The notes beneath the pieces are model-generated. The model was not told where the DNA came from, did no database searches, and saw only the letters and a program-made list of their open reading frames with translations. DNA of 64,000 nucleotides from Asterias amurensis (Eukaryota; Echinodermata; Asteroidea; Forcipulatida; Asteriidae), in NCBI RefSeq assembly GCF_032118995.1, contig NC_092660.1, positions 6,587,501-6,651,500 on the forward strand, read 5' to 3'. The translations under genes were made by a program, and so were the position numbers. Of the stretch, positions 1 through 32,297 are shown in pieces. Every line of letters starts with the position of its first letter. Within the stretch, counting starts at the first letter, position 1.

Positions 1-479
1 ATAAATTCTTTTGGAATCTGAAAAGAACTAGTGATGTAGCAACTCAATAATTTATTAGATTGTTTGAAATTGTTTAGAGATCTCGCTTAGAGATCTTGTT
101 TAAAAAAAGAGCGCGGATTTTTTTCAGGGAGTGCTTTGGTTTGGGGAAACATTTTATGATTTTTATTTTGTGATTATCTGGCAAATACAAAATCTAAACC
201 ATGTTTTTGTTCTTTTTTGAGACTTTCTGGATTTTATTCCCCATGGCAATAAATTGGAACCTGCTGTCTGCTAGGCAAGAGGAATAAGAATGAGGAAAAA
301 TGACTTCTTCATGATTTTATTGTTGAATACCGATAAATGTGACTACATTTGTTTGTATCAGGCTTAACACACGTATGCAAACGTGTTGCAGTCATTGTGT
401 GGACATTCCTTTGTTCTGTACACTTAATGGAAATCCTTTTCTTCAACATTGTAAACAGCACTGTGTGGACGTGTGTAAG

Positions 480-980
480 CCTGCCCCACCAGTTATTGGG
501 CAATTATTTCCCAACAGCCATTGGGTAAACCACTTACTAAATTATTGGGCAAACCCAACTACAAATAACTCTAATTACACATCTGTTAGATATCCTCTTA
601 ATACCATTTATTGGTTAAAAGTATTTGTTCATAAACTGGGCACTTTTCAACTAACTGTTAGTGAATTTTTTATTAGACTATTGGGCTTATTTAAAGTAAA
701 TATCCATCAATTGGTAACTTTTTTCACCAATTGTTGGTTAATGCTGTATCCAATTATTGGGAATTGTTTAAATTTCTGTCCACATATTGGTCATTTGTCC
801 CACCATGTATTGGTAAATGCTGTATCCAATTGTTGGGTTCGTTTAAATTTCTGTACATATACATGGGTAACTTTCCCGCCAAATGTTGGTCAATATTTTA
901 ACCATTGTTGTTGGAATATTTTAAATGAATTACACACATGTTGGGAAAAAAGAGAAACAGTTAATGCAGTTCATTTTTTT
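480..980. repeat. Degenerate array of ATTGGG motifs (copy 1)
   Basis: ATTGGGCA, ATTGGGTA and ATTGGTAA motifs recur every 30-40 bp or so. The 240-codon open frame across it is rich in Cys, His, Asn and Trp and drifts with the repeat, so I read it as non-coding. The counterparts are about 11250-11730 and 22110-22590. Reverse-complement versions (TGCCCAA, TACCCAA) lie at 2495-2610 and 3290-3510 in the same unit, the latter ending at a TTTTTTACAGTG that resembles a transposon terminus. Confidence 0.6.
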
Positions 981-2349
981 ATATTTTATTTATTGAACTT
1001 CACTGTACTGAAAGTACGCTTTAAAAATTTAAGCAACCTCAAAGATAGGAACTTCTTTTGAGAATCAGACTTGGTAGTCAGTAAAACATATGTGAGACTT
1101 CGCAAGGATCAAACATAATTTGTGAGAAAAAAATGCTTTGTAAATAGCTCAACTTTTTTTTTAAACATTTGAACATGACATAACTCACTCTTTCAGCAAC
1201 GTCTTTCACGCACGTAATCTTATTATTACCGAAGTTTGAGCTTTTGAAACACACACTTGCTTGTTTTTACTTTCTTTATGGTTTTTTTTTCAAAAATTGC
1301 TTGAAAGCAAATATAGGGTAAGGGTGTCGACCATAAAGGTTTGAAAGATTAAGTAACCCGGCAAAGACCAACCATGTTTTCCCCCTTAGTCAATTAAATT
1401 TCTTGACGGTCATACGATTCTAAAAAAGGCAAATGTCATGAGCATTAATTTATTGTCTGCAATGGAACAAGGAATGAATGAAAAGGTAAACAACAAAATG
1501 TCAAACAGCCAATGGTCAAGCTGTGAAGCTTTCACGGAAGACTTAGGAAAGTCAAAAAGGCTCTCGTGGCTCTTAGAGTTGGACTGTCTTTGTTTGTTGG
1601 AAGTCCAGGCTGGCTGAAAATATATACCTCTCAAAGAATTTCCACACACTTGTGCAAAGGTGCTGGTATTTACAGTCGAGGATGAAGTTACCTTATGGCA
1701 GACATCTACGGCCTTCGGTAGGGATGGTTGCGGAATGCCTTCTTCTCAATAATCACACTGGGAGGTTATAGCACTGATTCACTGTACAGGACAGGCAGGA
1801 ATGGAAGAGGATGTTTTGTCGTATCAATGTTTTCTTATGTTGGCATGTGCACAATATTCTACGAAAAGTCAAGGTAACAAGAAAATGTACATTGTTAACA
1901 AATATAAACAATTTACTGGAGCAGGACCAATCGGTTGATATGCTGGTGCGGACGGCTAAATTGAACCCTCGCATAAACTGTTCCCCCAAACAAAGAATTG
2001 TGGAAGGGGTCAAACTACAGTAGGACAGATTTCCCTAAGACAATGGCACTCTAGAAACTGACCTATGCTGGTGGTCTCCCTATTTATTGTCAACAACCTT
2101 CCTGTTGGGATGGCAGTAATAATTCATAAAACCAAACACTGCCCTATGGCCGGGGATCACATCCAAGTTATGGTAAACCAGGAAAGAGGCAGTGCCTGGA
2201 TACACATGCCTCTTCACTTACTCTCCCTAGGTGCAACGTTAACTTAGGTGTGATCCCTGGCTAAAGACAGCCACATAGTCCCTCCCCCTAGATCCGCCAA
2301 AAGAATGCGAGATACTAGCTTTCATATAATTTTGCAAGACACCACTCAC
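981..2349. other. Non-coding part of the segment (copy 1)
   Basis: AT-rich DNA with short open frames only. None has convincing splice sites or codon bias, and I see no tRNA or element ends. The same stretch is carried in copies 2 and 3. Confidence 0.5.
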
Positions 2350-3180
2350 CAGTTGTACACCAGGCTGTCATTGTTTCCTTTGGCCCAAATCTGACACCAG
2401 TCTTCTTCTTGTCGCAGCCACCAAATATCACTGGAATGCAAACAAATTTGCATAAATGACATGTCATGCAATGTTTTTTGCCCAACTAGTATTACTATTG
2501 CAGGAACCATACTCGAAAATTGGGCATGATGGGTATTGACATTGCCCAATTTTTATTGAAAGAAATATCCCACTCAAACACTGGGCATACGCATATTACA
2601 ATAGCCCAACTAATGAAAGAAACTAGGCCTTTTGCTTAAAAGTTGAACGTTAGTAGATGTGACGTTGCTCAAAGGTTGGATAGCCAGGCTTAACTTATGG
2701 CAAGTTGTCTGCTGGAAATTGTAACAAATTTTTAAAAAGCAAACAACCAAAAGCAAAAGGAAGACAGTTGAAAAAAACAACCCACACATACACATACAAA
2801 CGAACCAAAAATCCAACAAACAAACAAACAAGCATAAAACGACACACCATATTTTTAACAACCAATTTGCAAAAAAAGGTTTTTGTTTTGACTTTTATCT
2901 TTAACGTTATCCCTATAGGCTAGGCCTACTCGACTCTCGAGTTAATGTCAGTGTTACACACGCTATGTATGGTTGTGCGCACCAAGTTTAACGTTTTTAT
3001 TTCTAAATAAAAGCGTATGTGAGCTATGGTTTTATCTCCATTGTATTCATTGTAAGAATTACCGTAGAATCGTTTGTGCAGCTCGTCGAGCCCCCATTCA
3101 TGAAGAATCTCTTCAAGCGTGTTACCACTCCGCCATGATTGCTCACAAGTTCTCCACGACATTCTCGATGTATTTTGTGT
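2350..3180 (-). CDS. Possible two exons of a second minus-strand gene (copy 1)
   Basis: Candidate exon A (3180-3063, 118 nt) runs from a TACAATTCAG acceptor to a GTAATT donor and encodes a stretch ending LEEILHEWGLDELHKRF. This faintly recalls the first helices of a SAM domain (hydrophobic heptads, GL..L...F). Candidate exon B (2430-2350, 81 nt) has a CATTCCAG acceptor and a GTGAGT donor; in the matching phase 1 it reads VIFGGCDKKKTGVRFGP. The same sites recur in copy 2 (13944-13827 for A) and copy 3 (24809-24692 for A). No start, stop or third exon could be placed with confidence. Splice sites of this strength also occur by chance. Confidence 0.28.
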
Positions 3181-4533
3181 CTGAATTGTAGCCCGAACAT
3201 CTGACGTCACACTTCGAGGCCAATCTAGTCTGATTGTTAGTTTTTAAGTGCCCTCAATCATGTCAAAGTAACCAACTAGTGGGCTTATTGCTGATTTTAT
3301 ACCCAACATCTAGTATGGCGACTGAAGCAAGCACCATGTACCCTTTTATTGGGTAAAGATTACCAAACTTTAATGACTCAATTTCGTACGAACATTGGCA
3401 AAGCCTAACATTTACCCAACAGCAAATTTTACCTATAAATGTGTTAAAAAAATGACCAAAATATGTGTGAATATAGTTTTACCCAACACCCGATTACCCA
3501 TTTTTTTACAGTGATAGTTTCTACATAGTCTCTATCTTTATATTTTTGAATAAGTGTTTTTTTCTTTTCTTTTCTGCAGTGGTAGAAGTTTATCCTTGTA
3601 GTCGATGCTCTTAGAACTTTCCCTCCTAAATTTGTTTCTGAACTTCCTATTTTGTTTTAAACATGTGTCTTTCACTGTTCAACTCCCCAGTTCTTCTTTT
3701 TTTCTCTTTTCAAAGTTTATGTAATCATAGTCCTTTTTAGAAGTAAAAAAAATGCAAAAAATACAAAAAAATGTAGTGCTCCTTCGTAGTGCACCTTTTC
3801 TGGTACAACGTCCCTACCTATTAGATCTTTATTAGTGTGATTTCGACTAGACACATTACTGTTTGTTTTGTTTTACAGCTTAGATCACTGTAAAAATGAA
3901 TGCACTGTTTTTATATTGGCCGTTTGTATGTTTTATTGTGTTTGAGTGGTTGAGGTTTGAGAGAAGGAATGTAATATTTAATTAATAGAAAAAAAATAAA
4001 ATAAGGCAGGAAAAAGTAAATTCGTTTTCGTTTCATTCTATGATTTTTGGGAACTTTTTCATCCAAACAATTTTAGATGCTTTGTCCTGTGTCAACAAAC
4101 TAAATCTTGAATTTGTGTGTTTGGAGTCGGAGGTTGGGGTGAGGGTTTGTCAGGTTTCGGTTATTCTCCATTTTAACTTGACCAGACCTATATAGTGTTT
4201 ATACACCGTAGTGTGTTCATCGTTGGCCATAAATAATTGACAAACAGAACATTTGAGCTTTTCAGAATGTTTTTCTTTATTTCATCTTTGTTTATTATAT
4301 TTTCATGATAATTTTGTTTTTTACAATTCTTATATGATCTGGACTTCACTTGATTATACAATAGGATATAAAAAGGCAAAACGGAACGTATATTGAGCAG
4401 AGTGGTTTAAGTTCTAACTTACAAACAATACAATAAGTTTTATTATTTGTCAAAATGAAAATGAAAACTATTCCGGAAATTTTAATGAAAAATATTGGTA
4501 TACTAGTGACTCAACCCTGATTTACAAAAACTT
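3181..4533. other. Spacer downstream of the kinase gene (copy 1)
   Basis: Contains the reverse-complement ATTGGG-type array (3290-3510), T-rich and A-rich tracts, and the likely 3' untranslated region of the kinase gene next to its stop codon. Minus-strand AATAAA hexamers at 4444-4439 and 4282-4277 are candidate polyadenylation signals. No gene is seen. Confidence 0.55.
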
Positions 4534-7500
4534 TTAAGTGAATCTGGTCACGCGCCCTCTTCTTAGGCCCATTTTCTTATTCATTATCCGACACTTGAAT
4601 TCCTCAATCTCCTTAACCACTACGGCCACTGTTGGTCGATCATGAGGCATCCTTCTCTGACACTTCTCACACAAGTCACGAAAGAAAGACAACTTCTCAA
4701 TGTTTTTGTAGGAGACAAGAAGAAACAAGTGTCCCAAACTAAAGACGTCGCTTTTGATACCTCGTTTGCAGACGCCCTCTATCACCTCCGGTGGTATATG
4801 TGGGCAGTTTTTGTAGCACCACGCTTTTCTTGCAGAGGTCCACATGAATTCAGGAGATGGACTGTCAATCCGATCGGCAATTCCTAGGTCGACTACTTTC
4901 GCTGTACACTTATTGGAGTTATTGCTATCATACCATACCACAATGTTCCCAACGTGGAGGTCATTGTGAGACCATCCAGCCTCATGTAAGGCAAGAACTC
5001 CTCTTGAAATATCAAGACATATCTGGATCCAATCCAAGGTCTCCAAGTTGGCAGGAGTCTCGGACAGAAAAGAGTGTAGGTTACTTGATTTCTTAGTGAC
5101 TGGATCTCCCACAAACTCAAGGGCGAACGATTCATGATCAATGATGCCCCACACCTTGGGGATTTCCTTGCAATGTTGGACTGCCAGCATGACTCTGATT
5201 TCGTTTACCATATCATTGTATTTCACAGTGCCTGTGGCTAGAATTTTTTTGACAGCAACTAGAGTACCGTCTGATATCTTCTTCTTCAAGAATACTTCTC
5301 CATTAACCCCCTTCCCAAGACAGGTTGGTTTACCTTGTGTCATCACGTCCTCTAACTCGATTTCATGAAGAACTGGGATAAACGAACATACAGCAGGTAG
5401 AGGGACAGCTGTGAAGAAAAATTGGTCTATTTCTTGGGCAAGAAATGGGTCTATTTCTTCAGCAAGAGTTACTTGGGGATGAGTTTCTACAGGATGTGAA
5501 GGTCCCTTCCTCTGAGCTTTGAAATCAATCTCTGGAAGAGTTTGGGTTTCATGCACAAGCCTCCTAAAGAAAAAGAAAAATAATGGAATGTTTTTGTTGG
5601 GGTTTTGGTTTGAGCGTCTTTTAGCAACAAAACTCCATTGTATTAAACAGTTAAGTTACTTCCTACCCCCCCCCCCCCCTTCTAAAAATAAGGGTTGTAG
5701 CTGTTTCTGATCGTGTGTTCTTTTGAAAGAAAAACTGTTTCTTTGGAAGGTGATTCAATCTTGGCCGCACAGCAATCGATTTGCCATTCCACAAAGTGGG
5801 AAAAAACTTACCTTTTATTAATAACTTTCGGTGAAATGTTTGCGGCAGGCTTGGGTGGGCGTTTACGGATTCTTGCCCGGAGGGGCGCAGGCCGGAGGGG
5901 TGCAGCCGGGTGTGTTGGTAACTGTAGTTGGCACTCGGGATTTGAAGCCCGGTGACCTGTCGGTGTTTGGCATGCGGCGGGGATTGAAGTCTCACCAGCC
6001 ATTGCTGGCACCATCAGAGGAGGGGCAGCCGATGTGGCCGCAGTCGGTGGAAGGATAGGGGGCATGTTTGGTTGTTCCATTGATTGTCTAGGGGAAGGCT
6101 GTCTTGGACGAGTTGAATTGTCCTCTTCATATCCCATAGCTTGCAACCAAGGTAACATAGAGCCAGTTTCGCCACTATAAAGAAAGTTGGTGGCAATCTT
6201 AGTAAGAACTTTTCATACAGAAACATACTCTGCGACTGAAACTTCAAAATAATTAATTTATTGAATGGAAACTTCAATGTATTCACATTTGTCATTTTAA
6301 GAAAACAGATGTTTTGAATTATTTTTTGACCTATGTGTTCGAAATTACAATATTATTCGATGAAGTTGTTGTGGTATTTACCCGATATCTAGCGGTTGTG
6401 CCATCATGGCGTCTACCCTTTCCATTACTCCCTCAAATGTTCGTCCTTTTTGCACACTTTGCTGAAACCAAATAAAGAGGAGAGATTTCATTGAAAAGGA
6501 GATGAACGCAAAATATGAAGAATTTGTCTTAGTTAAAGAAAATGGATTATTAATTTGATTACTTTGTTGTCGAGGCTTACCTGTGCGTGCGTTGAACCAT
6601 CGCCTTCACTCTGAGGTTTGGATTGGTTGACTTCATCCCCAGGCGATAGGGAGCCACTTGGATCCGCGAGTGTAGTTGCAGAGGCAGCATTTTCATCTCT
6701 ATTGGAGGCTGGAGATGTTCTTTTAGTCTCACTTGTCGAAGGGACGTTGACACTGTTTTTCTCTGCATTTGTTGAAGGGACGTTGACACGTTTATTCTCT
6801 GCACTTGTCGAAATGACTTTGACACTTTTATTCTCTGCACTTGGCGAAATGACTTTGACACTTTTATTCTCTGCACTTGTCGAAATGACTTTGACACTTT
6901 TATTCTCTGCACTTGTCGAAGGGACGTTGACACTCCCCTCAAGAAATACTAGCCCAGAGCATTCTTGTTGGGCACCGTTCCTTGATGATGAGGGAGCATT
7001 ACAGCTACCACTCGGTGGGGTTTTAGGGCGCTTTGGTGCCTCACTGGTTGTTTTCTGCTCGGCATCTTTCAGAGCTTGCAGTATCTCACTTTCACTGTGA
7101 AAACAATACTCGTTTTTTAAACAACATGACACTGTCGGTATTGAACTTTTAGCCACTACCAATATCAAACAATACTCATCAAATTGTACGAAGCCATCTG
7201 GCTATTTCAACGATCAATGAATCTTCATTTTAGTGCTGTTTATCCTGTTTTGTTTTGTGATGTTGTATAAACGGTCACATCAATCACAAGCATCGGCTTT
7301 TAGGATGGCCTCCATGTGCAAATCATTAGACAATAAATGTTCCATTGAATTGAGTTGAATTTCTTACCTGATTTGTTGGTCATTTATCATTTGAACCAAC
7401 TCTGAGACATCGTTGACTGTCTCGTCATCTCTTCGTTCGTCAGACTGAATGGCGTTAGCATCTTGCGATGATGGCGGACGTGCCACGTCTTCGTCTTCCC

Positions 7501-9270
7501 CTGTGATGTCAAGTCCTCCCTGGGAAGATGATGTTGAACTCACACCGGAGGAGGATTGCTCATCCTCATCCTTTGTAGATGATGTGGCAATTTCAATATC
7601 AGGATTGATATCAATTTCAAGATCAAGATTTATATTTTCAAGATGCACTTGAGAGCAGTAAGCATCTTGGTAGATCTGCTGCCTCATTTTCTCCATTCTC
7701 AAAACCCGATCTTCATGCACTGCCGATCTTCTCAGCCTTCGAGAAATGACACAACTGAGTATTACAACTTTATGTTGAGGTCATAAAATGAATATCCACC
7801 TGTCAATCATGTCAATAAGTGGAAGTGCGGTTTAAAAGTGTTTAGTCAACCATTGATGTATGCAGGCAATATAGTCACACTCTTCAATTTAGTGCTGTTT
7901 ATTTAGTTAGTGCTGTTTAGTTTTTGTTTGTTTTGTATTGTTTTGTAATGGGCACATCCATCGCAAGCCTTGGCTTTTAGAATGATGCCTCCATGTAGAA
8001 TTGAAGTTAATTTAATTCTCACCAGAGTGTTTGGTCATCTATCTCTTGAACCAACTCCGAGACATCGTTGACTGTCTCATCATCTCTTCCTTCGTCAGAC
8101 GGAATAGCGTAAGCATCTTGCGATGATGGCGGACGGGCCACGTCTTCGTCTTCCCCTGTGATGCCAAGTCCTCCCTGGAAAGATGATGTTGAACTCACAC
8201 CGGATGAGAATTGCTCATCCTCATCCTTTGTAGATGATATGGCAATTTCAATATCAGGATTGATATCAATTTCAAGATCAAGATTGGTATGATCAAGATG
8301 CACTTGAGAGCAGTAAGCATCTTGGTAGATCTGCTGCCTCATTTTCTTCATTCTCAAAACCCGATCTTCTTGCTCAGCTGATCTTCTCAGCCTTCGAGAA
8401 AGGACACAAATGAGTATTACAACTTTATGTTGAGGTCATAAAATGAATATCCACCTGTCAATTATGTCAATAAGTACAAGTGCGGTTTAAAAGTGTTTAG
8501 TCAACCGTTGATGATACAAGTATTTTGCTTTGTTAACTTTCCATTCTATTAAAATAAGAAGTTGTCTAAATATTTATTTTGAAAGAATTTTCGAACAAAA
8601 TCATCAAGTGATATAATTGTCAAATAAGATATTCTGAGAGTGTGAGCATTTACCTGTAAAGAATCCTGGTTGTTGGAAATCTTCCGGGTGCATCTGGGAT
8701 GTGCCATTTTGGCAGAAGGGGTGGGGGATCGTTGTTGGTATCTTCCACCAACCGACCGGGCGGGTATACCTCCCATGCCCGGTATAACTCTCTGTTGGTT
8801 ATAATAAACTTTGTTAGTATCACATCTCTCTGGGGACGGTGCCTTTTTATGAAATAATGAGCATTATAAAAACATCGGCGACGTTTGTTTACTGTAGTCA
8901 TGCAGTGGAACGACTCTTTATTAAAAAAAAAAACCAAGATAACAACAAAACACATTATGATTAGGAGAGCCTACTTTTTATTCGGGCAAAACATTCACAA
9001 GATATACCTGATACACGTGTATGTATACAAAAAATACTTACAAACTTAAGTTAACAGTGGAATGCCCAGCAGAGTTGGCCTAAAAACTGTTAAAAATACA
9101 ACTGTCGCGAAAAGGCATATGCGATATTAAACGTATTGTGTATTGGTTTCATCAGGAACAAGTGAACAAAATTGAAGAAAAGTTTATAAACTACGGTACA
9201 ATAATTTGTTTTAGACTTACCGGTAATTCACCGAGGTCAACGTCTCAATCGCTTTAAGCACTGTAATCAT
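4534..9270 (-). CDS. Protein kinase-like protein, 8 exons, 970 aa (copy 1)
   Basis: Coding exons, 5' to 3': 9270-9221, 8791-8654, 8391-8023, 7736-7368, 7094-6581, 6461-6382, 6174-5812, 5563-4534. All introns are GT...AG, all phases agree, and the sum is 971 codons with stop. The start is ATG at 9270 (AAAATGA context), reading MITVLKAIE. Residues 1-627 are mostly low-complexity and acidic or Ser/Pro-rich, with two duplicated 123-codon exons and a 12-residue repeat. The kinase domain is at about 705-955: Gly loop GKGVNGEV near 711, VAVK lysine 733, catalytic loop HNDLHVGN with Asp829 and Asn834, DLG at 853-855, PPEV at the APE position, and DRPT near the end. HRD is HND and DFG is DLG, so the usual HRD arginine is absent but the catalytic residues are kept. 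Substrate and pathway are unknown; the look is TKL-like. Candidate AATAAA signals (minus) lie at 4444-4439 and 4282-4277. Confidence 0.87.
6719..6934 (-). repeat. 36-bp coding VNTR, 6 units (exon 5, copy 1)
   Basis: Six in-frame repeats of 36 bp encode variants of SVKVISTSAENK. The outer units read VNVPST rather than VKVIST, so the array appears to expand from its middle. Copies 2 and 3 have eight units. Confidence 0.95.
7205..8510 (-). repeat. Tandem exon duplication (exons 3 and 4, copy 1)
   Basis: Two blocks of about 650 bp, offset 655 bp, each hold a 369-nt exon plus flanking intron. Both exons enter and leave in phase 2, so the duplication keeps the frame. The proteins share most residues, including the runs MRQQIYQDAYCSQVHL and DLEIDINPDIEIA and the acidic/Ser stretch. 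The same pair is present in copies 2 (18196-19219) and 3 (29072-30095), so the exon duplication is older than the segment triplication. Confidence 0.92.
9042..9079 (-). other. Candidate cryptic 38-nt exon in intron 1 (copy 1)
   Basis: On the minus strand a TTTTTAG acceptor and a strong GTAAGT donor bracket 38 nt between exons 1 and 2. Included, it would shift the frame and give an in-frame TAA within the insert. The same sites are present in copies 2 and 3. It may be unused, or it may be a frame-breaking (poison) exon. Confidence 0.3.
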
Positions 9271-9840
9271 TTTGGTCGAAATTTCTCGTATTGAGGCAAA
9301 ACTCAGCTGAAAAACTTGTTGATAACATTCGGGAAATGTATATCGCCAATAAAATCCCTGTCTATCGTACAAACGCTAAACAAGAACAGAGTAAATTTCC
9401 TGTATGTGTGTGTTTATGTATCCAGGGAGGTGCGCACGTGGGAACGGTTCGTTTCGAACGGGCGCGCTAAACGCAGCTTGTGTCGTCACAGTAGCTTCCA
9501 TTGATTACGTCATTTAATATTCCACACGTGATTCACCACGCAAAGACCTTTATGCAAACATATTTTATTCGATATCCATGGTTTCATTGTTGACTATAAA
9601 CATTGGGTCAATACGTCACATGTCGATGTCCTGGCCGCGTTTTAGTATTGAAACATGGGCGCGCCCATATTATAGAATATAATACCACTCTATATCTATG
9701 GGGCGCGCCGCCTATACGCCTCTCTTAATATTTATGCATGACGTCATAATTCAGTGGCTGCGCCCATCGCCTCGTTTTGGATTAGCATTGTGACGTACCT
9801 CGTGCATAAATATTAAGAAAGGCGTGCCACCACACATTTA
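9271..9840 (-). promoter_or_regulatory. Putative kinase-gene upstream region with a CRE-bearing palindrome (copy 1)
   Basis: This is the only CpG-rich stretch of the unit and lies just upstream of the start codon. It contains a near-palindrome of two arms of about 33 bp (9716-9750 and 9789-9828) with TCTTAATATTTATGCA in both and TGACGTCA or GTGACGTA next to them. Further ACGTCA-type sites lie at about 9506 and 9614, and GGGCGCGCC blocks at about 9658 and 9700. CRE-like sites in the first kb suggest promoter function, but a decayed foldback element is an equal possibility. It recurs at about 20100-20670 and, more diverged, 30977-31550. Confidence 0.35.
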
Positions 9841-10424
9841 GCGCTTACATGCCATTTTTTAAGCAGGAAAGAATACGTTTATTTTTTGAAAGTTTACTTT
9901 TTTTTTTAAGGAAAGACAATCAGGCAGAGGAACGATCAATCTGGTTTAACAACATATATTAATTTTAGTAGGGCTTGACAATAGACTTCAAAATGGTTGT
10001 TTGTTGTTATTGTTGTTGTTGTTTGGGTTCTTTTGTGTGTGTGTGTGTGGGGGGGGGGGGTTGACACCTTATAGCCCCGGGATGGTAAAAACAGTGTAAC
10101 AATAACATACACATAGGTAAGCCCAACAATTGTTAGTTTGATTATTTATTAAATGGCCAGTCACTGTCTAGGATTTTATTTGTAGCCCCTTATTATTTGT
10201 TTGTATTTGTTTTTAATTAATGATGTTTTAATTAGTAACATTTTAAGGACCAAACAAGAACATCTATAAAGCTTATCAGTCTCGTCTTAATTTAGGACTA
10301 GCCTTAAGTTTTTAATATCTCCAGACCATATAAGACTAGTCCTAACTCTTTGCGAAATCGACCCCTGGTCTCTAATGATTGTTTTTTTCTTCCGATGAAT
10401 GGTGTATGCTGTTTATCCTCACAG
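9841..10424. other. Spacer between the kinase promoter side and the orphan exon (copy 1)
   Basis: AT-rich. Apart from the simple repeat there is only a degenerate inverted pair of TTAGGACTAG / ACTAGTCCTAA around 10294-10350. No gene is seen. Confidence 0.5.
9990..10062. repeat. Simple repeat: GTT / GT / G run (copy 1)
   Basis: (GTT)n, then (TG)n, then a G run. Length differs in each copy (20822-20885; about 31707-31765, where the G run is expanded). Confidence 0.9.
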
Positions 10425-10593
10425 CATGATAGCTGACCAAGGAGCAATTGCACCACTTCCTGAGGTTGTCTATTACAAGCCCGCTGCTTGCTTCAGCAAA
10501 GAGCCCATCATGATGTACCCAATGGGATGCAATGTTGAGAGACCAGGGAACATCTTCACTGGAACCGTCATCCCAACCAAGCAGTTCATCAAG
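10425..10593 (+). CDS. Orphan internal exon of an unrecognised gene (copy 1)
   Basis: A 169-nt open exon follows a pyrimidine-rich acceptor (TCCTCACAG) and ends at a GTCAGT donor after an AAG codon. It enters with one base completing a codon and leaves in phase 0, encoding 56 residues beginning MIADQGAIAPLPEVVYYKP and ending IPTKQFIK. Codon use and composition look like real coding sequence. No partner exon is visible on the plus strand nearby, so it is probably a stranded fragment caught in the duplicated segment. I do not recognise the family. Confidence 0.6.
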
Positions 10594-10639
10594 GTCAGTT
10601 TAATACTAGGATAATACTAGGATAAGTTCCTGTATTCCA

Positions 10640-10720
10640 ATCAATGGAACAACCAAATATGCCCCTATCCTTCCATCCCACCGACTGCGGCCACATCGGC
10701 TGCCCCATCTCCTCTTTCGG
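10640..10720 (+). pseudogene. Inverted fragment of kinase-gene exon 7 at the segment junction
   Basis: About 80 bp match the coding strand of exon 7 (minus-strand bases about 6095-6015), but here in plus orientation. Both contain CAATGGAACAACCAAA, TATCCTTCCA and CCGACTGCGGCCACATCGGC. Small insertions break the frame. It lies between the orphan exon and the segment junction. It is repeated in copy 2 at about 21469-21548 and absent from copy 3, which is truncated before it. Confidence 0.85.
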
Positions 10721-13700
10721 ATGGGACGTAGGCAGGAATGCATGCAAAAGAACAACACTAGAACCAAGATTTTGCAGGAGGAATGTGTCTATAAATTCTT
10801 TTGGAATCTGAAAAGAACTAGTGATGTAGCAACTCAATAATTTATTAGATTGTTTGAAATTGTTTAGAGATCTCGCTTAGAGATCTTGTTTAAAAAAAGA
10901 GCGCGGATTTTTTTCAGGGAGTGCTTTGGTTTGGCGAAACATTTTATGATTTTTATTTTGTGATTATCTGGCAAATACAAAATCTAAACCAAGAGGAATA
11001 AGAATGAGGAAAAATGACTTCTTCATGATTTTATTGTTGAATACCGATAAATGTGACTACATTTGTTTGTATCAGGCTTAACACACGTATGCAAAGGCAG
11101 CTCTGTGTTGCAGTCATTGTGTGGACATTCCTTTGTTCTGTACACTCAATGAAAATCCTTTTCGTAAACATTGTAAACAGCACTGTGTGGACGTGTGTAA
11201 GCCTGCCCCACCAGACAGCACTGTGTGGACGTGTGTAAGCCTGCCCCACCAGTTATTGGGCAATTATTTCCCAACAGCCATTGGGTAAACCACTTACTAA
11301 ATTATTGGGCAAACCCAACTACACATAACTCTAATTACACATCTGTTGGATATCCTCTTAATACCATTTATTGGTTACAAGTATTTGTTCATAAACTGGG
11401 CACTTTTCAACTAACTGTTAGTGAATTTTTTATTAGACTATTGGGCTTGTTTAAAGTATATATCCATCAATTGGTAACTTTTTTCACCAATTGTTGGTTA
11501 ATGCTGTACCCAATTATTGGGAATTGTTTAAATTTCTGTCCACATATTGGTCATTTGTCCCACCATGTATTGGTAAATGCTGTATCCAATTGTTGGGTTC
11601 GTTTAAATTTCTGTACATATACATGGGTAACTTTCCCGCCAAATGTTGGTCAATATTTTAACCATTGTTGTTGGAATATTTTAAATGAATTACACACATG
11701 TTGGGAAAGAAGAGAAACAGTTAATGCAGTTCATTTTTTATTATTTTATTTATTGAACTTCACTGTACTGAAAGTACGCTTTAAAAATTTAAGCAACCTC
11801 AAAGATAGGAACTTCTTTTGAGAATCAGACTTGGTAGTCAGTAAAACATATGTGAGACTTCGCAAGGATCAAACATAATTTGTGAGAAAAAATGCTTTGT
11901 AAATAGCTCAACTTTTTTTTTTTAACATTTGAACATGACATAACTCACTCTTTCAGCAACGTCTTTCACGCACGTAATCTTATTATTACCGAAGTTTGAG
12001 CTTTTGAAACACACGCTTGCTTGTTTTTACTTTCTTTATGGTTTTTTTTTCAAAACATGCTTGAAAGCAAATATAGGGTAAGGGTGTCGACCATAAAGGT
12101 TTGAAAGATTAAGTAACCCGGCAAAGACCAACCATGTTTTCCCCCTTAGTCAATTAAATTTCTTGACGGTCATACGATTCTAAAAAGGCAAATGTCATGA
12201 GCATTAATTTAAAATCTGCAATGGAACAAGGAATGAATGAAAAGGTAAACAACAAAATGTCAAACAGCCAATGGTCAAGCTGTGAAGCTTTCACGGAAGA
12301 CTTAGGAAAGTCAAAAAGGCTCTCATGGCTCTTAGAGTTGGACTGTCTTTGTTTGTTGGAAGTCCAGGCTGGCTGAAAATATATACCTCTCAAAGAATTT
12401 CCACACACTTGTGCAAAGTTGCTGGTGTTTACAGTCGAGGATGAAGTTGCCTTATGGCAGACATCTACGGCCTTCGGTAGGGATGGTTGCGGAATGCCTT
12501 CTTCTCAATAATCACACTGGGAGGTTATAGCACTGATTCACTGTACAGGACAGGCAGGAATGGCAGAGGATGTTTTGTCGTATCAATGTTTTCTTATGTT
12601 GGCATGTGCACAATATTCTACGAAAAGTCAAGTTAACAAGAAAATGTACATTGTTAACAAATATAAACAATTTACTGGAGCAGGACCAATCGGTTGATAT
12701 GCTGGTGCGGACGGCTAAATTGAACCCTCGCATAAACTGTTCCCCCAAACAAAGAATTGTGGAAGGGGTCAAACTACAGTAGGACAGATTTCCCTAAGAC
12801 AATGGCACTCTAGAAACTGACCTATGCTGGTGGTCTCCCTATTTATTGTCAACAACCTTCCTGTTGGGATGGCAGTAATAATTCATAAAACCAAACACTG
12901 CCCTATGGCCGGGGATCACATCCAAGTTATGGTAAACCAGGAAAGAGGCAGTGCCTGGATACACACGCCTCTTCACTTACTCTCCCTAGGTGCAACGTTA
13001 ACTGAGGTGTGATCCCTGGCTAAAGACAGCCACATAGTCCCTCCCCCTAGATCCGCCAAAAGAATGCGAGATACTAGCTTTCATATAATTTTGCAAGACA
13101 CTACTCACCAGTTGTACACCAGGCTGTCATTGTTTCCTTTGGCCCAAATCTGACACCAGTCTTCTTCTTGTCGCAGCCACCAAATATCACTGGAATGCAA
13201 ACAAATTTGCATAAATGACATGTCATGCAATGTTTTTTGCCCAACTAGTATTACTATTGCAGGAACCATACTCGAAAATTGGGCATGATGGGTATTGACA
13301 TTGCCCAATTTTTATTGAAAGAAATATCCCACTCAAACACTGGGCATACGCATATTACAACAGCCCAACTAATGAAAGAAACTAGGCCTTTTGCTTAAAA
13401 GTTGAACGTTAGTAGATGTGACGTTGCTCAAAGGTTGGATAGCCAGGCTTAACTTATGGCAAGTTGTCTGCTGGAAATTGTAACAAATTTTTAAAAAGCA
13501 AACAACCAAAAGCAAAAGGAAGACAGTTGAAAAAAACAACCCACACATACACATACAAACGAACCAAAAATCCAACAAACAAACAAACAAGCATAAAACG
13601 ACACACCATATTTTTAACAACCAATTTGCAAAAAAAAAGGTTTTTGTTTTGACTTTTATCTTTAACGTTATCCCTATGGGCTAGGCCTACTCGACTCTCG

Positions 13701-21249: not shown

Positions 21250-21418
21250 CATGATAGCTGACCAAGGAGCAATTGCACCACTTCCTGAGGTTGTCTATTA
21301 CAAGCCCGCTGCTTGCTTCAGCAAAGAGCCCATCATGATGTACCCAATGGGATGCAATGTTGAGAGACCAGGGAACATCTTCACTGGAACCGTCATCCCA
21401 ACCAAGCAGTTCATCAAG
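21250..21418 (+). CDS. Orphan internal exon, copy 2
   Basis: Identical in protein to the exon in copy 1, with the same splice borders. It is again isolated, 4.5 kb or more from any other plus-strand coding candidate. Confidence 0.6.
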
Positions 21419-21468
21419 GTCAGTTTAATACTAGGATAATACTAGGATAAGTTCCTGTAATCCAATCA

Positions 21469-21548
21469 ATGGAACAACCAAATATGCCCCTATCCTTCCA
21501 TCCCACCGACTGCGGCCACATCGGCTGCCCCATCTCCTCTTTCGGATG
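21469..21548 (+). pseudogene. Inverted exon 7 fragment, copy 2 junction
   Basis: Same fragment as at 10640, at the junction between copies 2 and 3, with the same breaks. Confidence 0.85.
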
Positions 21549-24500
21549 GGACGTAGGCAGGAATGCATGCAAAAGAACAACACTAGAACTAAGATTTTGC
21601 AGGAGGAATGTGTCTATAAATTCTTTTGGAATCTGAAAAGAACTAGTGATGTAGCAACTCAATAATTTATTAGATTGTTTGAAATTGTTTAGAGATCTCG
21701 CTTAGAGATCTTGTTTAAAAAAAGAGCGGGGATTTTTTTCAGGGAGTGCTTTGGTTTGGGGAAACATTTTATGATTTTTATTTTGTGATTATCTGGCAAA
21801 TACAAAATCTAAACCATGTTTTTGTTCTTTTTGAGACTTTCTGGTTTTTATTCCCCATGGCAATAAATTGGAACCTGCTGTCTGCTAGGCAAGAGGAATA
21901 AGAATGAGGAAAAATGACTTCTTCATGATTTTATTGTTGAATACCGATAAATGTGACTACATTTGTTTGTATCAGGCTTTAACACACGTATGCAAAGGCA
22001 GCTCTGTGTTGCAGTCATTGTGTGGACATTCCTTTGTTCTGTACACTCAATGAAAATCCTTTTCTTCAACATTGTAAACAGCACTGTGTGGACGTGTGTA
22101 AGCCTGCCCCACCAGTTATTGGGCAATTATTTCCCAACAGCCATTGGGTAAACCACTTACTAAATTATTGGGCAAACCCAACTACACATAACTCTAATTA
22201 CACATCTGTTAGATATCCTCTTAATACCATTTATTGGTTAAAAGTATTTGTTCATAAACTGGGCACTTTTCAACTAACTGTTAGTGAATTTTTTATTAGA
22301 CTATTGGGCTTATTTAAAGTATATATCCATCAATTGGTAACTTTTTTCACCAATTGTTGGTTAATGCTGTCTCCAATTATTGGGAATTGTTTAAATTTCT
22401 GTCCACATATTGGTCATTTGTCCCACCATGTATTGGTAAATGCTGTATCCAATTGTTGGGTTCGTTTAAATTTCTGTACATATACATGGGTAACTTTCCC
22501 GCCAAATGTTGGTCAATATTTTAACCATTGTTGTTGGAATATTTTAAATGAATTACACACATGTTGGGAAAGAAGAGAAACAGTTAATGCAGTTCATTTT
22601 TTATTATTTTATTTATTGAACTTCACTGTACTGAAAGTACGCTTTAAAAATTTAAGCAACCTCAAAGATAGGAACTTCTTTTGAGAATCAGACTTGGTAG
22701 TCAGTAAAACATATGTGAGACTTCGCAAGGATCAAACATAATTTGTGAGAAAAAATGCTTTGTAAATAGCTCAACTTTTTTTTTTTAACATTTGAACATG
22801 ACATAACTCACTCTTTCAGCAACGTCTTTCACGCACGTAATCTTATTATTACCGAAGTTTGAGCTTTTGAAACACACGCTTGCTTGTTTTTACTTTCTTT
22901 ATGGTTTTTTTTTCAAAACATGCTTGAAAGCAAATATAGGGTAAGGGTGTCGACCATAAAGGTTTGAAAGATTAAGTAACCCGGCAAAGACCAACCATGT
23001 TTTCCCCCTTAGTCAATTAAATTTCTTGACGGTCATACGATTCTAAAAAGGCAAATGTCATGAGCCTTAATTTAAAATCTGCAATGGAACAAGGAATGAA
23101 TGAAAAGGTAAACAACAAAATGTCAAACAGCCAATGGTCAAGCTGTGAAGCTTTCACGGAAGACTTAGGAAAGTCAAAAAGGCTCTCATGGCTCTTAGAG
23201 TTGGACTGTCTTTGTTTGTTGGAAGTCCAGGCTGGCTGAAAATATATACCTCTCAAAGAATTTCCACACACTTGTGCAAAGTTGCTGGTGTTTACAGTCG
23301 AGGATGAAGTTGCCTTATGGCAGACATCTACGGCCTTCGGTAGGGATGGTAGCGGAATGCCTTCTTCTCAATAATCACACTGGGAGGTTATAGCACTGAT
23401 TCACTGTACAGGACAGGCAGGAATGGCAGAGGATGTTTTGTCGTATCAATGTTTTCTTATGTTGGCATGTGCACAATATTCTACGAAAAGTCAAGTTAAC
23501 AAGAAAATGTACATTGTTAACAAATATAAACAATTTACTGGAGCAGGACCAATCGGTTGATATGCTGGTGCGGACGGCTAAATTGAACCCTCGCATAAAC
23601 TGTTCCCCCAAACAAAGAATTGTGGAAGGGGTCAAACTACAGTAGGACAGATTTCCCTAAGACAATGGCACTCTAGAAACTGACCTATGCTGGTGGTCTC
23701 CCTATTTATTGTCAACAACCTTCCTGTTGGGATGGCAGTAATAATTCATAAAACCAAACACTGCCCTATGGCCGGGGATCACATCCAAGTTATGGTAAAC
23801 CAGGAAAGAGGCAGTGCCTGGATACACACGCCTCTTCACTTACTCTCCCTAGGTGCAACGTTAACTGAGGTGTGATCCCTGGCTAAAGACAGCCACATAG
23901 TCCCTCCCCCTAGATCCGCCAAAAGAATGCGAGATACTAGCTTTCATATAATTTTGCAAGACACTACTCACCAGTTGTACACCAGGCTGTCATTGTTTCC
24001 TTTGGCCCAAATCTGACACCAGTCTTCTTCTTGTCGCAGCCACCAAATATCACTGGAATGCAAACAAATTTGCATAAATGACATGTCATGCAATGTTTTT
24101 TGCCCAACTAGTATTACTATTGCAGGAACCATACTCGAAAATTGGGCATGATGGGTATTGACATTGCCCAACTTTTATTGAAAGAAATATCCCACTCAAA
24201 CACTGGGCATACGCATATTACAACAGTCTAACTAATGAAAGAAACTAGGCCTTTTGCTTAAAAGTTGAACGTTAGTAGATGTGACGTTGCTCAAAGGTTG
24301 GATAGCCAGGCTTAACTTATGGCAAGTTGTCTGCTGGAAATTGTAACAAATTTTTAAAAAGCAAACAACCAAAAGCAAAAGGAAGACAGTTGAAAAAAAC
24401 AACCCACACATACACATACAAACGAACCAAAAATCCAACAAACAAACAAACAAACAAGCATAAAACGACACACCATATTTTTAACAACCAATTTGCAAAA

Positions 24501-26163
24501 AAAGGTTTTTGTTTTGACTTTTATCTTTAACGTTATCCCTATGGGCTAGGCCTACTCGACTCTCGAGTTAATGTCAGTGTTACACACGCTATGTATGGTT
24601 GTGCGCACCAAGTTTAACGTTTTTATTTCTAAATAAAAGCGTATGTGAGCTATGGTTTTATCATCTCCATTGTATTCATTGTGAGAATTACCTGAGAATC
24701 GTTTGTGCAGCTCGTCGAGCCCCCATTCACGAAGAATCTCTTCAAGCGTGTTACCACTCCGCCATGATTGCTCACAAGTTCTCCACGACATTCTCGATGT
24801 ATTTTGTGTCTGAATTGTAGCCCGAACATCTGACGTCACACTTCGAGGCCAATCTAGTCTGATTGTTAGTTTTTAAGTGCCCTCAATCATGTCAAAGTAA
24901 CCAAACCAACTAGTGGGCTTATTGCTGATTTTATACCCAACATCTAGTATGGCGACTGAAGCAAGCACCATGTACCCTTTTGTTGGGTAAAGATTACCAA
25001 ACTTTAATGACTCAATTTCGTACGAACATTGGCAAAGCCTAACATTTACCCAACAGCAAATTTTACCCATAAATGTGTTTAAAAAATGATCAAAATAGTG
25101 TGAATATAGTTTTACCCAAAACCCGATTACCCATTTTTTACAGTGATAGTTTCTACATAGTCTCTAATTTATATTTTGGAATAAGTGTTTTTTCTTTTCT
25201 TTTCTGCAGTGGTAGAAGTTTATCCTTGTAGTCGATGCTCTTAGAACTTTCCCTCCTAAATTTGTTTCTGAACTTCCTATTTTGTTTTAAACATGTGTCT
25301 TTCACTGTTCAACTCCCCAGTTCTTCTTTTTTTCTCTTTTCAAAGTTTATGTTATCATAGTCCTTTTTAGAAGTAAAAAAATGCAAAAAATACAAAAAAA
25401 ATGTAGTGCTCCTTCGTAGTGCATCTTTTCTGGTACAACGTCCCTACCTATTAGATCTTTATTAGTGTGATTTCGACTAGACACATTACTGTTTGTTTTG
25501 GTTTACAGCTTAGATCACTGTAAAAATGAATGCACTGTTTTTATATTGGCCGTTTGTATGTTTTATTGTGTTTGAGTGGTTGAGGTTTGAGAGAAGGAAT
25601 GTAATATTTAATTAATAGAAAAAATAAAATAAGGCAGGAAAAAGTAAATTCGTTGTCGTTTCATTCTATGATTTTTGGGAACTTTTTCATCCAAACAATT
25701 TTAGATGCTTTGTCCTGTGTCAACAAAACTAAATCTTGAATTTGTGTGTTTGGAGTCGGAGGTTGGGGTGAGGGGTTTGTCAGGTTTCGGTTATTCTCCA
25801 TTTTAACTTGACCAGACCAATATAGTGTTTATACACCGTAGTGTGTTCATCGTTGGCCATAAATAATTGACAAACAGAACATTTGAGCTTTTCAGAATGT
25901 TTTTCTTTATTTCTTCTTTGTTTATTATAATTTCATGATAATTTTGTTTTTTACAATTCTTATATGATCTGGACTTCACTTGATTATACAATAGGATATA
26001 AAAAGGCAAAACGGAATGTATATTGAGCAGAGTGGTTTAAGTTCTAACTTACAAACAATACAATAAGTTTTATTATTTGTCAAAATGAAAATGAAAACTA
26101 TTCCGGAAATTTTAATGAAAAATATTGGTATACTAGTGACTCAACTCTGATTTACAAAAACTT

Positions 26164-29100
26164 TTAAGTGAATCTGGTCACGCGCCCTCTTCTTGGGCCC
26201 ATTTTCTTATTCATTATCCGACACTTGAATTCCTCAATCTCCTTAACCACTACGTCCACTGTTGGTCGATCATGAGGCATCCTTCTCTGACACTTCTCAC
26301 ACAAGTCACGAAAGAAAGACAACTTCTCAATGTTTTTGTAGGAGACAAGAAGAAACAAGTGTCCCAAACTAAAGACGTCGCTTTTGATACCTCGTTTGCA
26401 GACGCCCTCTATCACCTCCGGTGGTATATGTGGGCAGTTTTTGTAGCACCACGCCTTTCTTGCAGAGGTCCACATGAATTCAGGAGATGGACTGTCAATC
26501 CGATCGGCAATTCCTAGGTCGACTACTTTCGCTGTACACTTATTGGAGTTATTGCTATCATACCATACCACAATGTTTCCAACGTGGAGGTCATTGTGAG
26601 ACCATCCAGCCTCATGTAAGGCAAGAACTCCTCTTGAAATATCAAGACATATCTGGATCCAATCCAAGGTCTCCAAGTTGGCAGGAGTCTCGGACAGAAA
26701 AGAGTGTAGGTTACTTGATTTCTTAGTGACTGGATCTCCCACAAACTCAAGGGCGAACGATTCATGATCAATGATGCCCCACACCTTGGGGATTTCCTTG
26801 CAATGTTGGACTGCCAGCATGACTCTGATTTCGTTTACCATATCATTGTATTTCACAGTGCCTGTGGCTAGAATTTTTTTGACAGCAACTAGAGTACCGT
26901 CTGATATCTTCTTCTTCAAGAATACTTCTCCATTAACCCCCTTCCCAAGACAGGTTGGTTTACCTTGTGTCATCACGTCCTCTAACTCGATTTCATGAAG
27001 AACTGGGATGAACGAACATACAGCAGGTAGAGGGACAGCTGTGAAGAAAAATTGGTCTATTTCTTGGGCAAGAAATGGGTCTATTTCTTCAGCAAGAGTT
27101 ACTTCGGGATGAGTTTCTACAGGATGTGAAGGTCCCTTCCTCTGAGCTTTGAAATCAATCTCTGGAAGAGTTTGGGTTTCATGCACAAGCCTCCTAAAGA
27201 AAAAGAAAAATAATGGAATGTTTTTGTTGGGGTTTTGGTTTGAGCGTCTTTTACCAACAAAACTCCATTGTATTAAACAGTTAAGTTACTTCCTACCCCC
27301 CCCCTTCTAAAAATAAGGGTTATAGCTGTTTCTGATCGTGTGTTCTTTTGAAAGAAAAACTGTTTCTTTGGAAGGTGATTCAATCTTGGCCGCACAGCAA
27401 TCGATTTGCCATTCCACAAAGTGGGAAAAAACTTACCTTTTATTAATAACTTTCGGTGAAATGTTTGCGGCAGGCTTGGGTGGGCGTTTACGGATTCTTG
27501 CCCGGAGGGGCGCAGGCCGGAGGGGTGCAGCCGGGTGTGTTGGTAACTGTAGTTGGCACTCGGGATTTGAAGCCCGGTGACCTGTCGGTGTTTGGCATGC
27601 GGCGGGGATTGAAGTCTCACCAGCCATTGCTGGCACCATCAGAGGAGGGGCAGCCGATGTGGCCGCAGTCGGTGGAAGGATAGGGGGCATGTTTGGTTGT
27701 TCCATTGATTGTCTAGGGGAAGGCTGTCTTGGACGAGTTGAATTGTCCTCTTCATATCCCATAGCTTGCAACCACGGTAACATAGAGCCAGTTTCGCCAC
27801 TATAAAGAAAGTTGGTGGCAATCTTAGTAAGAACTTTTCATACAGAAACATACTCTGCGACTGAAACTTCAAAATAATTAATTTATTGAATGGAAACTTC
27901 AATGTATTCACATTTGTCATTTTTAAGAAAACAGATGTTTTGAATTATTTTTGTTAATAGACCTATGTGTTCGAAATTACAATATTATTCGATGAAGTTG
28001 TTGTGGTATTTACCCGATATCTAGCGGTTGTGCCATCATGGCGTCTACCCTTTCCATTACTCCCTCAAATGTTCGTCCTTTTTGCACACTTTGCTGAAAC
28101 CAAATAAAGAGGAGAGATTTCATTGAAAAGGAGATGAACGCAAAATATGAAGAATTTGTCTTAGTTAAAGAAAATGGATTATTAATTTGATTAATTTGTT
28201 GTCGAGGCTTACCTGTGCGTGCGTTGAACCATCGCCTTCACTCTGAGGTTTGGATTGGTTGACTTCATCCCCAGGCGATAGGGAGCCACTTGGATCCGCG
28301 AGTGTAGTTGCAGAGGCAGCATTTTCATCTCTATTGGAGGCTGGAGATGTTCTTTTAGTCTCACTTGTCGAAGGGACGTTGACACTGTTTTTCTCTGCAT
28401 TTGTTGAAGGGACGTTGACACGTTTATTCTCTGCACTTGTCGAAATAACTTTGACACTTTTATTCTCTGCACTTGTCGAAATGACTTTGACACTTTTATT
28501 CTCTGCACTAGTCGAAATGACTTTGACACTTTTAGTCTCTGCACTTGTCGAAATGACGTTGACACTTTTATTCTCTGCACTTGTCGAAATGACTTTGACA
28601 CTTTTATTCTCTGCACTTGTCGAAGGGACGTTGACACTCCCCTCAAGAAATACTAGCCCAGAGCATTCTTGTTGGGCACCGTTCCTTGATGATGAGGGAG
28701 CATTACTGCTACCACTCGGTGGGGTTTGAGGGCGCTTTGGTGCCTCACTGGTTGTTTTCTGCTCTGCATCTTTCAGAGCTTGCAGTGTCTCACTTTCACT
28801 GTGAAAACAATACTCGTTTTTTAAACAACATGACATTGTCGGTATTGAACTTTTAGCCACTACCAATATCAAACAATACTCATCAAATTGTACGAAGCCA
28901 TCTGGCTATTTCAACGATCAATGAATCTTCATTTTAGTGCTGTTTATCCTGTTTTGTTTTGTGATGTTGTATAAACGGTCACATCAATCACAAGCATCGG
29001 CTTTTAGGATGGCCTCCATGTGCAAATCATTAGACAATAAATGTTCCATTGAATTGAGTTGAATTTCTTACCTGATTTGTTGGTCATTTATCATTTGAAA

Positions 29101-30976
29101 CAACTCTGAGACATCGTTGACTGTCTCGTCATCTCTTCGTTCGTCAGACGGAATGGCGTTAGCATCTTGCGATGATGGCGGACGTGCCACGTCTTCGTCT
29201 TCCCCTGTGATGTCAAGTCCTCCCTGGGAAGATGATGTTGAACTCACACCGGAGGAGGATTGCTCATCCTCATCCTTTGAAGATGATGTGGCAATTTCAA
29301 TATCAGGATTGATATCAATTTCAAGATCAAGATTTATATTTTCAAGATGCACTTGAGAGCAGTAAGCATCTTGGTAGATCTGCTGCCTCATTTTCTCCAT
29401 TCTCAAAACCCGATCTTCATGCACTGCCGATCTTCTCAGCCTTCGAGAAATGACACAACTGAGTATTACAACTTTATGTTGAGGTCATAAAATGAATATC
29501 CACCTGTCAATTATGTCAATAAGTGCAAGTGCGGTTTAAAAGTGTTTAGTCAACCATTGATGTATGCAGGCAATATAGTCACACTCTTCAATTTAGTGCT
29601 GTTTATTTAGTTAGTGCTGTTTAGTTTTTGTTTGTTTTGTATTGTTTTGTAATGGGCACATCCATCGCAAGCCTTGGCTTTTAGAATGATGCCTCCATGT
29701 AGAATTGAAGTTAATTTAATTCTCACCTGAGTGTTTGGTCATCTATCTCTTGAACCAACTCCGAGACATCGTTTACTGTCTCATCATCTCTTCCTTCGTC
29801 AGACGGAATGGCGTTAGCATCTTGCGATGATGGCGGACGGGCCACGTCTTCGTCTTCCCCTGTGATGCCAAGTCCTTCCTGGGAAGATGATGTTGAACTC
29901 ACACCGGAGGTGGATTGCTCATCCTCATCCTTTGTAGTTGATGTGGCAATTTCAATATCAGGATTGATATCAATTTCAAGATCAAGATTGATATGATCAA
30001 GATGCACTTGAGAGCAGTAAGCATCTTGGTAGATCTGCTGCCTCATTTTCTTCATTCTCAAAACCCGATCTTCTTGCTCAGCTGATCTTCTCAGCCTTCG
30101 AGAAAGGACACAAATGAGTATTACAACTTTATGTTGAGGTCATAAAATGAATATCCACCTGTCAATTATGTCAATAAGTGCAAGTGCGGTTTAAAAGTGT
30201 TTAGTCAACCGTTGATGATACAAGTATTTTTCTTTGTTAACTTTCCATTCTATTAAAATAAGAAGTTGTCTAAATATTTATTTTGAAAGAATTTTCGAAC
30301 AAAATCATCAAGTGATATAATTGTCAAATAAGATATTCTGAGAGAGTGTGAGCATTTACCTGTAAAGAATCCTGGTTGTTGGAAATCTTCCGGGTGCATC
30401 TGGGATGTGCCATTTTGGCATAAGGGGTGGGGGATTGTTGTTGGTATCTTCCACCAACCGACCGGGCGGGTATACCTCCCATGCCCGGTATAACTCTCTG
30501 TTGGTTATAATAAACTTTGTTAGTATCAAATCTCTCTGGGGACGGTGCCTTTTTATGGAATAATGAGCATTATAAAAACATCGGCGACGTTTGTTTACTG
30601 TAGTCATGCAGTGGAACGACTCTTTATTAAAAAAAAAAACCAAGATAACAACAAAACACATTATGATTAGGAGAGCCTACTTTTTATTCGGGCAAAACAT
30701 TCACAAGATATACCTGATACACGTGTATGTATACAAAAAATACTTACAAACTTAAGTTAACAGTGGAATGCCCAGCAGAGTTGGCCTAAAAACTGTTAAA
30801 AATACAACTGTCGCGAAAAGGCATATGCGATATTAAACGTATTGTGTTTTGGTTTCATCAGGAACAAGTGAACAAAATTGAAGAAAAGTTTATAAACTAC
30901 GGTACAATAATTTGTTTTAGACTTACCGGTAATTCACCGAGGTCAACGTCTCAATCGCTTTAAGCACTGTAATCAT
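26164..30976 (-). CDS. Protein kinase-like protein, 8 exons, 994 aa (copy 3)
   Basis: Coding exons: 30976-30927, 30497-30360, 30095-29727, 29440-29072, 28798-28213, 28093-28014, 27799-27437, 27193-26164. All frames are open and all splice sites are kept. The kinase exon differs from copy 2 at one residue (Leu in place of Ser) and exon 3 is identical in protein to copy 2, so copies 2 and 3 are the closest pair. Exon 5 has eight 12-residue repeats. Although the gene body is nearly identical to its neighbours, the DNA upstream of it (from about 31190) is markedly diverged, so its promoter may differ. Confidence 0.86.
28351..28638 (-). repeat. 36-bp coding VNTR, 8 units (exon 5, copy 3)
   Basis: Eight in-frame units. 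The order of unit variants nearly matches copy 2, with one VKV/VNV difference. Confidence 0.95.
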
Positions 30977-32137
30977 TTTGGTCGAAATTTCTCGTATTGA
31001 GGCAAAACTCAGCTGAAAAACTTGTTGATAACATTCGGGAAATGTATATCGCCAATAAAATCCCTGTCTATCGTACAAACGCTAAACAACAACAGAGTAA
31101 ATTTCCTGTATGTGTGTGTTTGTGTATCCAGGGAGGTGCGCACGTGGGAACGGTTCGTTTCGAACGGGCGCGCTAAACGCAGCTTGTGTCGTCACAAAAG
31201 CTTCCATTGATTACGTCATTTAATATTCCACACGCAATGCACCACGCAAAGACCTCTATGCAAATATATTTTATTCGATATCCATGGTTTCATTGATGAC
31301 TTTAAACATTGGGTCAATACGTCACATGTCGATGTCCCGGCCAAGTTTTAGTATCAGAACATGGGCGCGCCCATATATATAGTATAAAATTATAATACCA
31401 CTCTATATCTATGGGGCGCGCCGCCTATACGCCTCTCTTAATATTTATGCATGACGTCATAATTTAGTGGCTGCGCTCATCGCCTTGTTTTGGATTAGCA
31501 TTGTGACGTACCTCATGCATAAACATTAAGAAAGGCGTGCCACCACATTTTAGCGCTTACTTGCCATTTTTTTTAAGGAGGAAATAATACGTTTATTTTT
31601 TTTATTTTTAGTTTTTTTAAGGAAAGACAATCAGGCAGAGGAACGATCAATCTGGTTTAACAACATATATTAATCTTAGTAGGGCTTGACAATAGACTTC
31701 AAAAATGGTTGTTTGTTGTTATTGTTGTTGTTTGGGGGGGGGTTTGTGGGGGGGGGGGGCGGGGAAGGTTGACACGTTATAGCCCCGGGTTGATAAAAAC
31801 AGTGTAACAATAACATACACATAGGTAAGCTCAACAATTGTTAGTTTGATTATTTATTAAATGGCCAGCCACTGTCTAGGATTATATTTGTAGCCCCTTA
31901 TTATTTGTTTGTATTAGTTTTTAATTAATTTAATGTTTTAATTAGTAACATTTTAAGGACCAAACAGGAACATCTATAAAGCTTATCAGCCTCGTCCTAA
32001 TTTAGGACTAGCCTTAAGTTTTAAATATCTCCAGACCAGTTAAGACTATAGTCCTAACTCTTTGCGAAATCGACCCCTGGTCTCTAATGATTGTTTTTTT
32101 TCTTCCGATGAATGGTGTATGCTGTTTATCCTCACAG

Positions 32138-32297
32138 CATGCTAGCTGACCAAGGAGCAATTGCACCCACTTCCTGAGGTTGTCTACTTGCCAATAAGCC
32201 CGCTGCTTGCTTCAGCAAAGAGCCCATCATGATGTGCCCAATGGGATGCAACGTTGAGAGCCCAGAGAACATCTTCACTGGAACCGTCATCCCAACC
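32138..32297 (+). pseudogene. Decayed and truncated orphan exon, copy 3
   Basis: Same exon as at 10425 and 21250, but with one extra C after GCACC, a small insertion near TACTTGCCAATAAG and several substitutions, so its frame is lost. Its 3' end and donor are missing: homology stops at CATCCCAACC and a MITE begins at the next base. Confidence 0.85.

Follow-up and report, generated by a model that had tools for sequence, protein, structure and literature searches.

Four intact genes lying side by side in the genome of the sea star Asterias amurensis are, as we hold with good confidence, members of the protein-kinase superfamily in a tandem array that was founded earlier and homogenised later. 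We analysed a window of 64,000 nucleotides (positions 6,587,501 to 6,651,500 of contig NC_092660.1; coordinates below are those of the window, with negative numbers for sequence to its left). Comparison of the window with itself gave inter-copy alignments of 98.2-98.6% over 4.3-10.2 kb and one of 96.4% over 3.9 kb, and placed the right end of the array at 32297. The stretch 277-32297 consists of three copies of a 10.4-10.9-kb unit, all on the minus strand: copy A at 277..10990, copy B at 10991..21890 and copy C at 21891..32297 (unit edges were placed by us on the plus strand), and the three internal unit starts open with identical bases. The preliminary description had the array passing the left edge. 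It does so by one more full copy, copy 0, at -7444..276 (contig C13, 6580056-6587776; minus strand), of which only the right-hand end, 1..276, lies inside the window, but the array stops there, next to a vitellogenin-like gene. Searching 40 kb of left-hand sequence, as had been proposed, thus recovered a fourth full copy and nothing of the kinase gene beyond it; tblastn of the protein found no further pieces of the gene in these 40 kb or elsewhere in the window, and we rejected an array open to the left because only one further copy was found there. The total in this assembly is therefore four adjacent copies in the same orientation with a common junction. Across the whole genome (491,506,623 bases in 23 contigs; the assembly paper gives 22 chromosomes, PMC10625585), the kinase exon matched the four array places at 98-100% identity and 24 others at 29-54% (28 matches, 33 candidates scored).

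The predicted gene, modelled from genomic sequence alone, has eight exons on the minus strand in the same arrangement in all four copies, each with GT donors, AG acceptors, a start, a stop and no internal stop; the intact eight-exon frames that had been described for three full-length copies are thus confirmed and extend to copy 0. The predicted proteins measure 1047 (copy 0), 987 (A), 1011 (B) and 1011 (C) amino acids. The coding sequence of copy A runs from 9270 to 4534 (exons 9270-9221, 8842-8654, 8391-8023, 7736-7368, 7094-6581, 6461-6382, 6174-5812, 5563-4534), that of copy B from 20099 to 15285 (20099-20050, 19672-19484, 19219-18851, 18564-18196, 17922-17337, 17217-17138, 16924-16562, 16314-15285) and that of copy C from 30976 to 26164 (30976-30927, 30548-30360, 30095-29727, 29440-29072, 28798-28213, 28093-28014, 27799-27437, 27193-26164). 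Exon 5 contains an in-frame minisatellite of 36 bp, or 12 amino acids, on the minus strand (copy A 6730-6934, copy B 17486..17762, copy C 28362-28638), with 11, 6, 8 and 8 repeats in copies 0, A, B and C, respectively, counting the last partial one. Exons 3 and 4, each with flanking intron, form a duplicated pair of two approximately 515-bp blocks (copy A 7344-8513, copy B 18172..19341, copy C 29048-30217; minus strand) that differ at 31-40 of 515 columns and are duplicates of one another. In the genome, exon 3 matched only the array's own eight places (8 matches, 9 candidates), and exon 5 gave 7 matches among 130 candidates, 6 of them in the array and a weak one on contig C1 (29%, 1.4e-4).

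Divergence between copies is low overall and strongly uneven along the unit. The four copies differ pairwise by 1.02-2.07%, with 0.28-1.13% in introns (0.3-0.8% for copy C against the others), 0.56-1.18% in exons and 0.94-1.41% over the whole spacer in A, B and C, so that the near identity through introns and spacers that had been noted earlier stands. Values are higher, 1.5-3.1%, where 1 kb of 3' spacer is common to all four copies, with the maximum of 3.1% between C and copy 0, and on the outer 3' side of copy 0, divergence rises to about 5% within the first 170 or so columns. In the distal 5' flank (copy B 20320..21416, matching about 31200-32290 in copy C), copies 0, A and B lie 0.6-1.8% apart (0.74-1.81% in the comparison by region) but copy C differs from each of them by 6.85-7.13%, with the switch in copy C some 220 bp ahead of the start codon. 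Between B and C, 77 of 1080 sites differ in the distal 5' flank as against 40 of 4251 in the spacer (Fisher p 3e-27) and 5 of 1775 in introns (p 2e-27), whereas A and B show no flank excess (11/1481 versus 54/4242 in the spacer, p 0.12), so that no mutation hot spot lies here.

The nearest pair of copies also shifts along the unit, from A and B in the 5' flank to B and C in the introns and the whole spacer, while over the 1 kb of gene-proximal spacer that all four copies share, A and B, not B and C, are nearest. Over all 210 sites, shared sites cluster beyond chance for every pair. When only the gene and its near flanks are considered (121 sites), a sum-of-squares test is passed by all six pairs (p 0.024 to below 1/5000) and a stricter longest-run test by four of six, the exceptions being 0-A (0.18) and A-B (0.10); clustered differences can also come from uneven mutation rates. 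In the exon 3 block, copies 0, B and C are identical (0/515) and A differs at 13 sites, four of which match exon 4 where chance would give about 0.26 (p 1.6e-4). We considered a conversion tract from exon 4 into exon 3 of copy A and rejected it, since the exon-4-like sites alternate with private ones; this pattern is better explained if copy A keeps an old exon 3 lineage and copies 0, B and C were homogenised recently.

The left boundary of the array suggests how it was founded. Plus-strand open reading frames left of it match Vitellogenin_N at 6.9e-6, just above cut-off, with a second piece at 4.1e-5, below cut-off, and VWD at 2.6e-8. Further along on the same strand, we read -8924..-8672 as a 3' exon of this vitellogenin-like gene; Pfam gave no match to this exon itself. 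A plus-strand scrap of it sits at the promoter end of all four units, behind the common upstream region, with its frame broken by short deletions: at 21215..21461 in copy B (92% identical to -8924..-8672), at about 32102-32297 in copy C and, placed by offset, at about 10386-10632 in copy A. Since every unit carries this scrap, we infer a single junction at the founding of the array, where the vitellogenin-like gene met the sequence upstream of the kinase. Over the 190 bp that the scraps have in common, those of 0, A and B are identical (0/190) and that of C differs at 8 of 189 sites; against the original exon, the differences number 12/189 for 0, A and B and 9/195 for C. Because copy C also ends in the scrap, at 32297, a further right-hand copy may have been lost. 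Just right of the array lies a short element with inverted ends GGGCCGATTTCACAAAG (32300..32445), adjoined by a second one with inverted ends at 32447..32889. Left of the vitellogenin-like frames, from -36478 to -35852, we observed an open-frame repeat of the type VVVIRKFWEDV.

In the history that we propose, a duplication would have joined the kinase upstream region to the 3' part of the neighbouring vitellogenin-like gene, which runs convergently, and the resulting unit would have carried a scrap of that gene at its promoter end. This unit would later have been multiplied by unequal crossing-over; the same process, gene conversion or both would keep the interior of the array alike while the outermost flank, lacking an exchange partner, would retain old differences. 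Old edges, as in the 6-7% flank of copy C, together with a younger interior point to homogenisation of an older array. Exchange between copies by unequal crossing-over or gene conversion, as the preliminary description had suggested, is thus supported by the uneven divergence and by the clustering of shared sites. Its claim of very recent amplification holds in part: the interior is near-identical and younger, but the first duplication looks older by the outer flank of copy C. Borrowing the mutation rate of 9.13e-9 per site per generation given for Acanthaster cf. solaris (PMC10861045), we roughly place intron coalescence about 0.15-0.6 million generations ago and that of the copy C flank about 4 million generations ago.

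If one copy had simply been multiplied recently and had then drifted without exchange, divergence would be low over most of the unit, as it is: the 1.0-2.1% between copies is close to the 0.96% heterozygosity that PMC11090083 gives for the species. This simpler course of events is nevertheless unlikely, as divergence within one copy pair is strongly uneven, the nearest pair shifts along the unit and the 6-7% flank of copy C largely contradicts it. The same heterozygosity, which comes from another A. amurensis assembly, approximates the inter-copy difference and bears also on the idea that alleles or collapsed repeats were strung together by the assembler, so that the true haplotype would have fewer or more copies, as does a mean HiFi read length of 12.51 kb at 22.68x (PMC10625585) set against a 10.8-kb unit. 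Three different minisatellite lengths, copy-specific sites in all four copies, the different sequences on the two sides of the array and the absence of any N in the 104 kb joined speak against such an artefact, as does the use of hifiasm and purge_dups for the published assembly (PMC10625585). False allelic duplication would in our judgment be expected to give two copies in tandem, not four. With reads barely longer than the unit and heterozygosity near the inter-copy difference, we leave the artefact a small share of the probability and consider an assembly error in copy number unlikely; an older array with a homogenised interior is the reading that we carry forward.

The spacer is present in A, B and C and absent beside copy 0, a pattern suggesting that the unit gained it by insertion. 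Five open reading frames in it gave nothing above a cut-off in Pfam. Among the 40 of 376 candidates scored in a genome search, every match outside the array lies on contig C10, apart from matches to a dispersed repeat, about 100-140 bp long, in another part of the spacer. One stretch (copy B 12095..14276) is part of a repeat family, with diverged relatives at about 12 places on C10 (10.73 and 12.05-14.63 Mb) among these scored candidates, and two of the C10 loci agree at 90-95% over their six longest matching pieces. PMC11757944 places a candidate sex-determining region on chromosome 10 at 7-12 Mb, and we assume that C10 is this chromosome.

The kinase assignment rests on the part of exon 8 with HND and DLG motifs (copy B 15285..16160, minus strand), which scores as a protein kinase superfamily domain (Pkinase PF00069, E 8.6e-21, 74.9 bits versus a cut-off of 31.7). 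K54, E70, D150 (of HND), N155 and D174 (of DLG), which we take to be the catalytic Lys, Glu, Asp (HxD), Asn and Asp (DxG) of kinases, are invariant in all nine aligned family members. When the profile of these nine was compared with solved structures, EGFR, 7t6f (whose chain is named only Tyrosine-protein kinase), TNIK and B-Raf led with close scores among the best 60 of 2471 matches; since many tyrosine and tyrosine-kinase-like matches have close scores, we assign the array kinase to no named family. The N-terminal two thirds of the protein match no Pfam family above its cut-off, and this long region looks low in complexity by inspection. A single-sequence structure model reached a mean pLDDT of 34.8, too low to be of use.

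All four copies are probably working kinases, judging from their sequence. Intact frames together with exon indels of whole repeats only, as against seven intron indels, suggest that the copies are kept: where the four copies align, exons contain just two indels, both in the minisatellite and of 108 and 72 bp, multiples of 36, while 1779 bp of introns contain seven, three of them in one homopolymer run. Changes among copies comprise 16 synonymous and 36 non-synonymous ones, which does not depart from the neutral expectation (p 0.18); constraint on the amino-acid sequence is not clearly evident, and the change ratio alone does not show purifying selection. A verdict on selection from dN/dS was dropped, the changes being too few. 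Each gene would then encode a putative working kinase with a long N-terminal region and a variable minisatellite, and the size of the array would set kinase dosage.

The remainder of the window contains other features. Right of the array, at 37098-43552 on the plus strand, a BTB-BACK frame and a kelch-repeat frame are probably one kelch-like gene. A long TTGT simple repeat with several frames open occupies 35872-36504, a 41-bp tandem repeat of 11.5 copies at 100% identity lies at 49733-50203, and two arrays of one 37-75-bp repeat face opposite ways at 53635-54426 and 58904-59880, about 4.5 kb apart. Rfam had no match in the window at gathering threshold.

We regard the locus as a clear but ordinary tandem gene array of a known kind that leaves general understanding unchanged. 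Its value is that of a compact, bounded natural case in which founding junction, unhomogenised edge and homogenised interior can be read together and in which the exchange rate between copies could be separated from array age; it also offers a candidate locus for copy-number variation in a sea star that is invasive. Among the matches listed in literature searches on starfish or echinoderm kinases and Asterias vitellogenin, no title or abstract opening concerned this locus, and the main text of PMC11090083 contains no word beginning with kinase and names none in its section on expanded gene families. It is a quite improbable speculation that members of this family have again and again acquired a minisatellite of variable length ahead of a kinase domain that stays intact (12 amino acids in frame in the array, perhaps 20-21 in two paralogues on contig C3), the family being here amplified and homogenised beside a yolk-protein-like gene; this would be consistent with a fast-evolving role in recognition, say in immune defence or in reproduction, and populations would then vary in copy number and repeat length.

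Compared with known systems, the array kinase resembles eukaryotic protein kinases (PF00069, PF07714) in its above-cut-off domain score and catalytic residues but differs by HND for HRD and DLG for DFG. Its paralogues outside the array are dispersed, on C3 at 21.17, 5.41 and 21.34 Mb (the last one shortened) and on C5 at 23.99 Mb, with a kinase stretch 42-54% identical to that of the array; the best two kinase-exon matches outside the array, at 49 and 54% identity, are both on C3. Like the array, the C3 paralogues at 21.17 and 5.41 Mb have, upstream of the kinase exon, a minisatellite lying in open frames whose period (60 and 63 bp) is a multiple of three, but its repeat unit is unrelated and, judged from these frames, only putatively coding. 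Tandem arrays under concerted evolution include rRNA, histone and globin clusters. The present array shares with such multigene arrays the same-strand units, the common junction, the homogenised interior and the diverged outer edge, with about 7% in the copy C flank versus 0.3-1.4% in introns and spacer against A and B, and it differs from them in comprising only four copies of one protein-coding gene and in a minisatellite length that is not homogenised.
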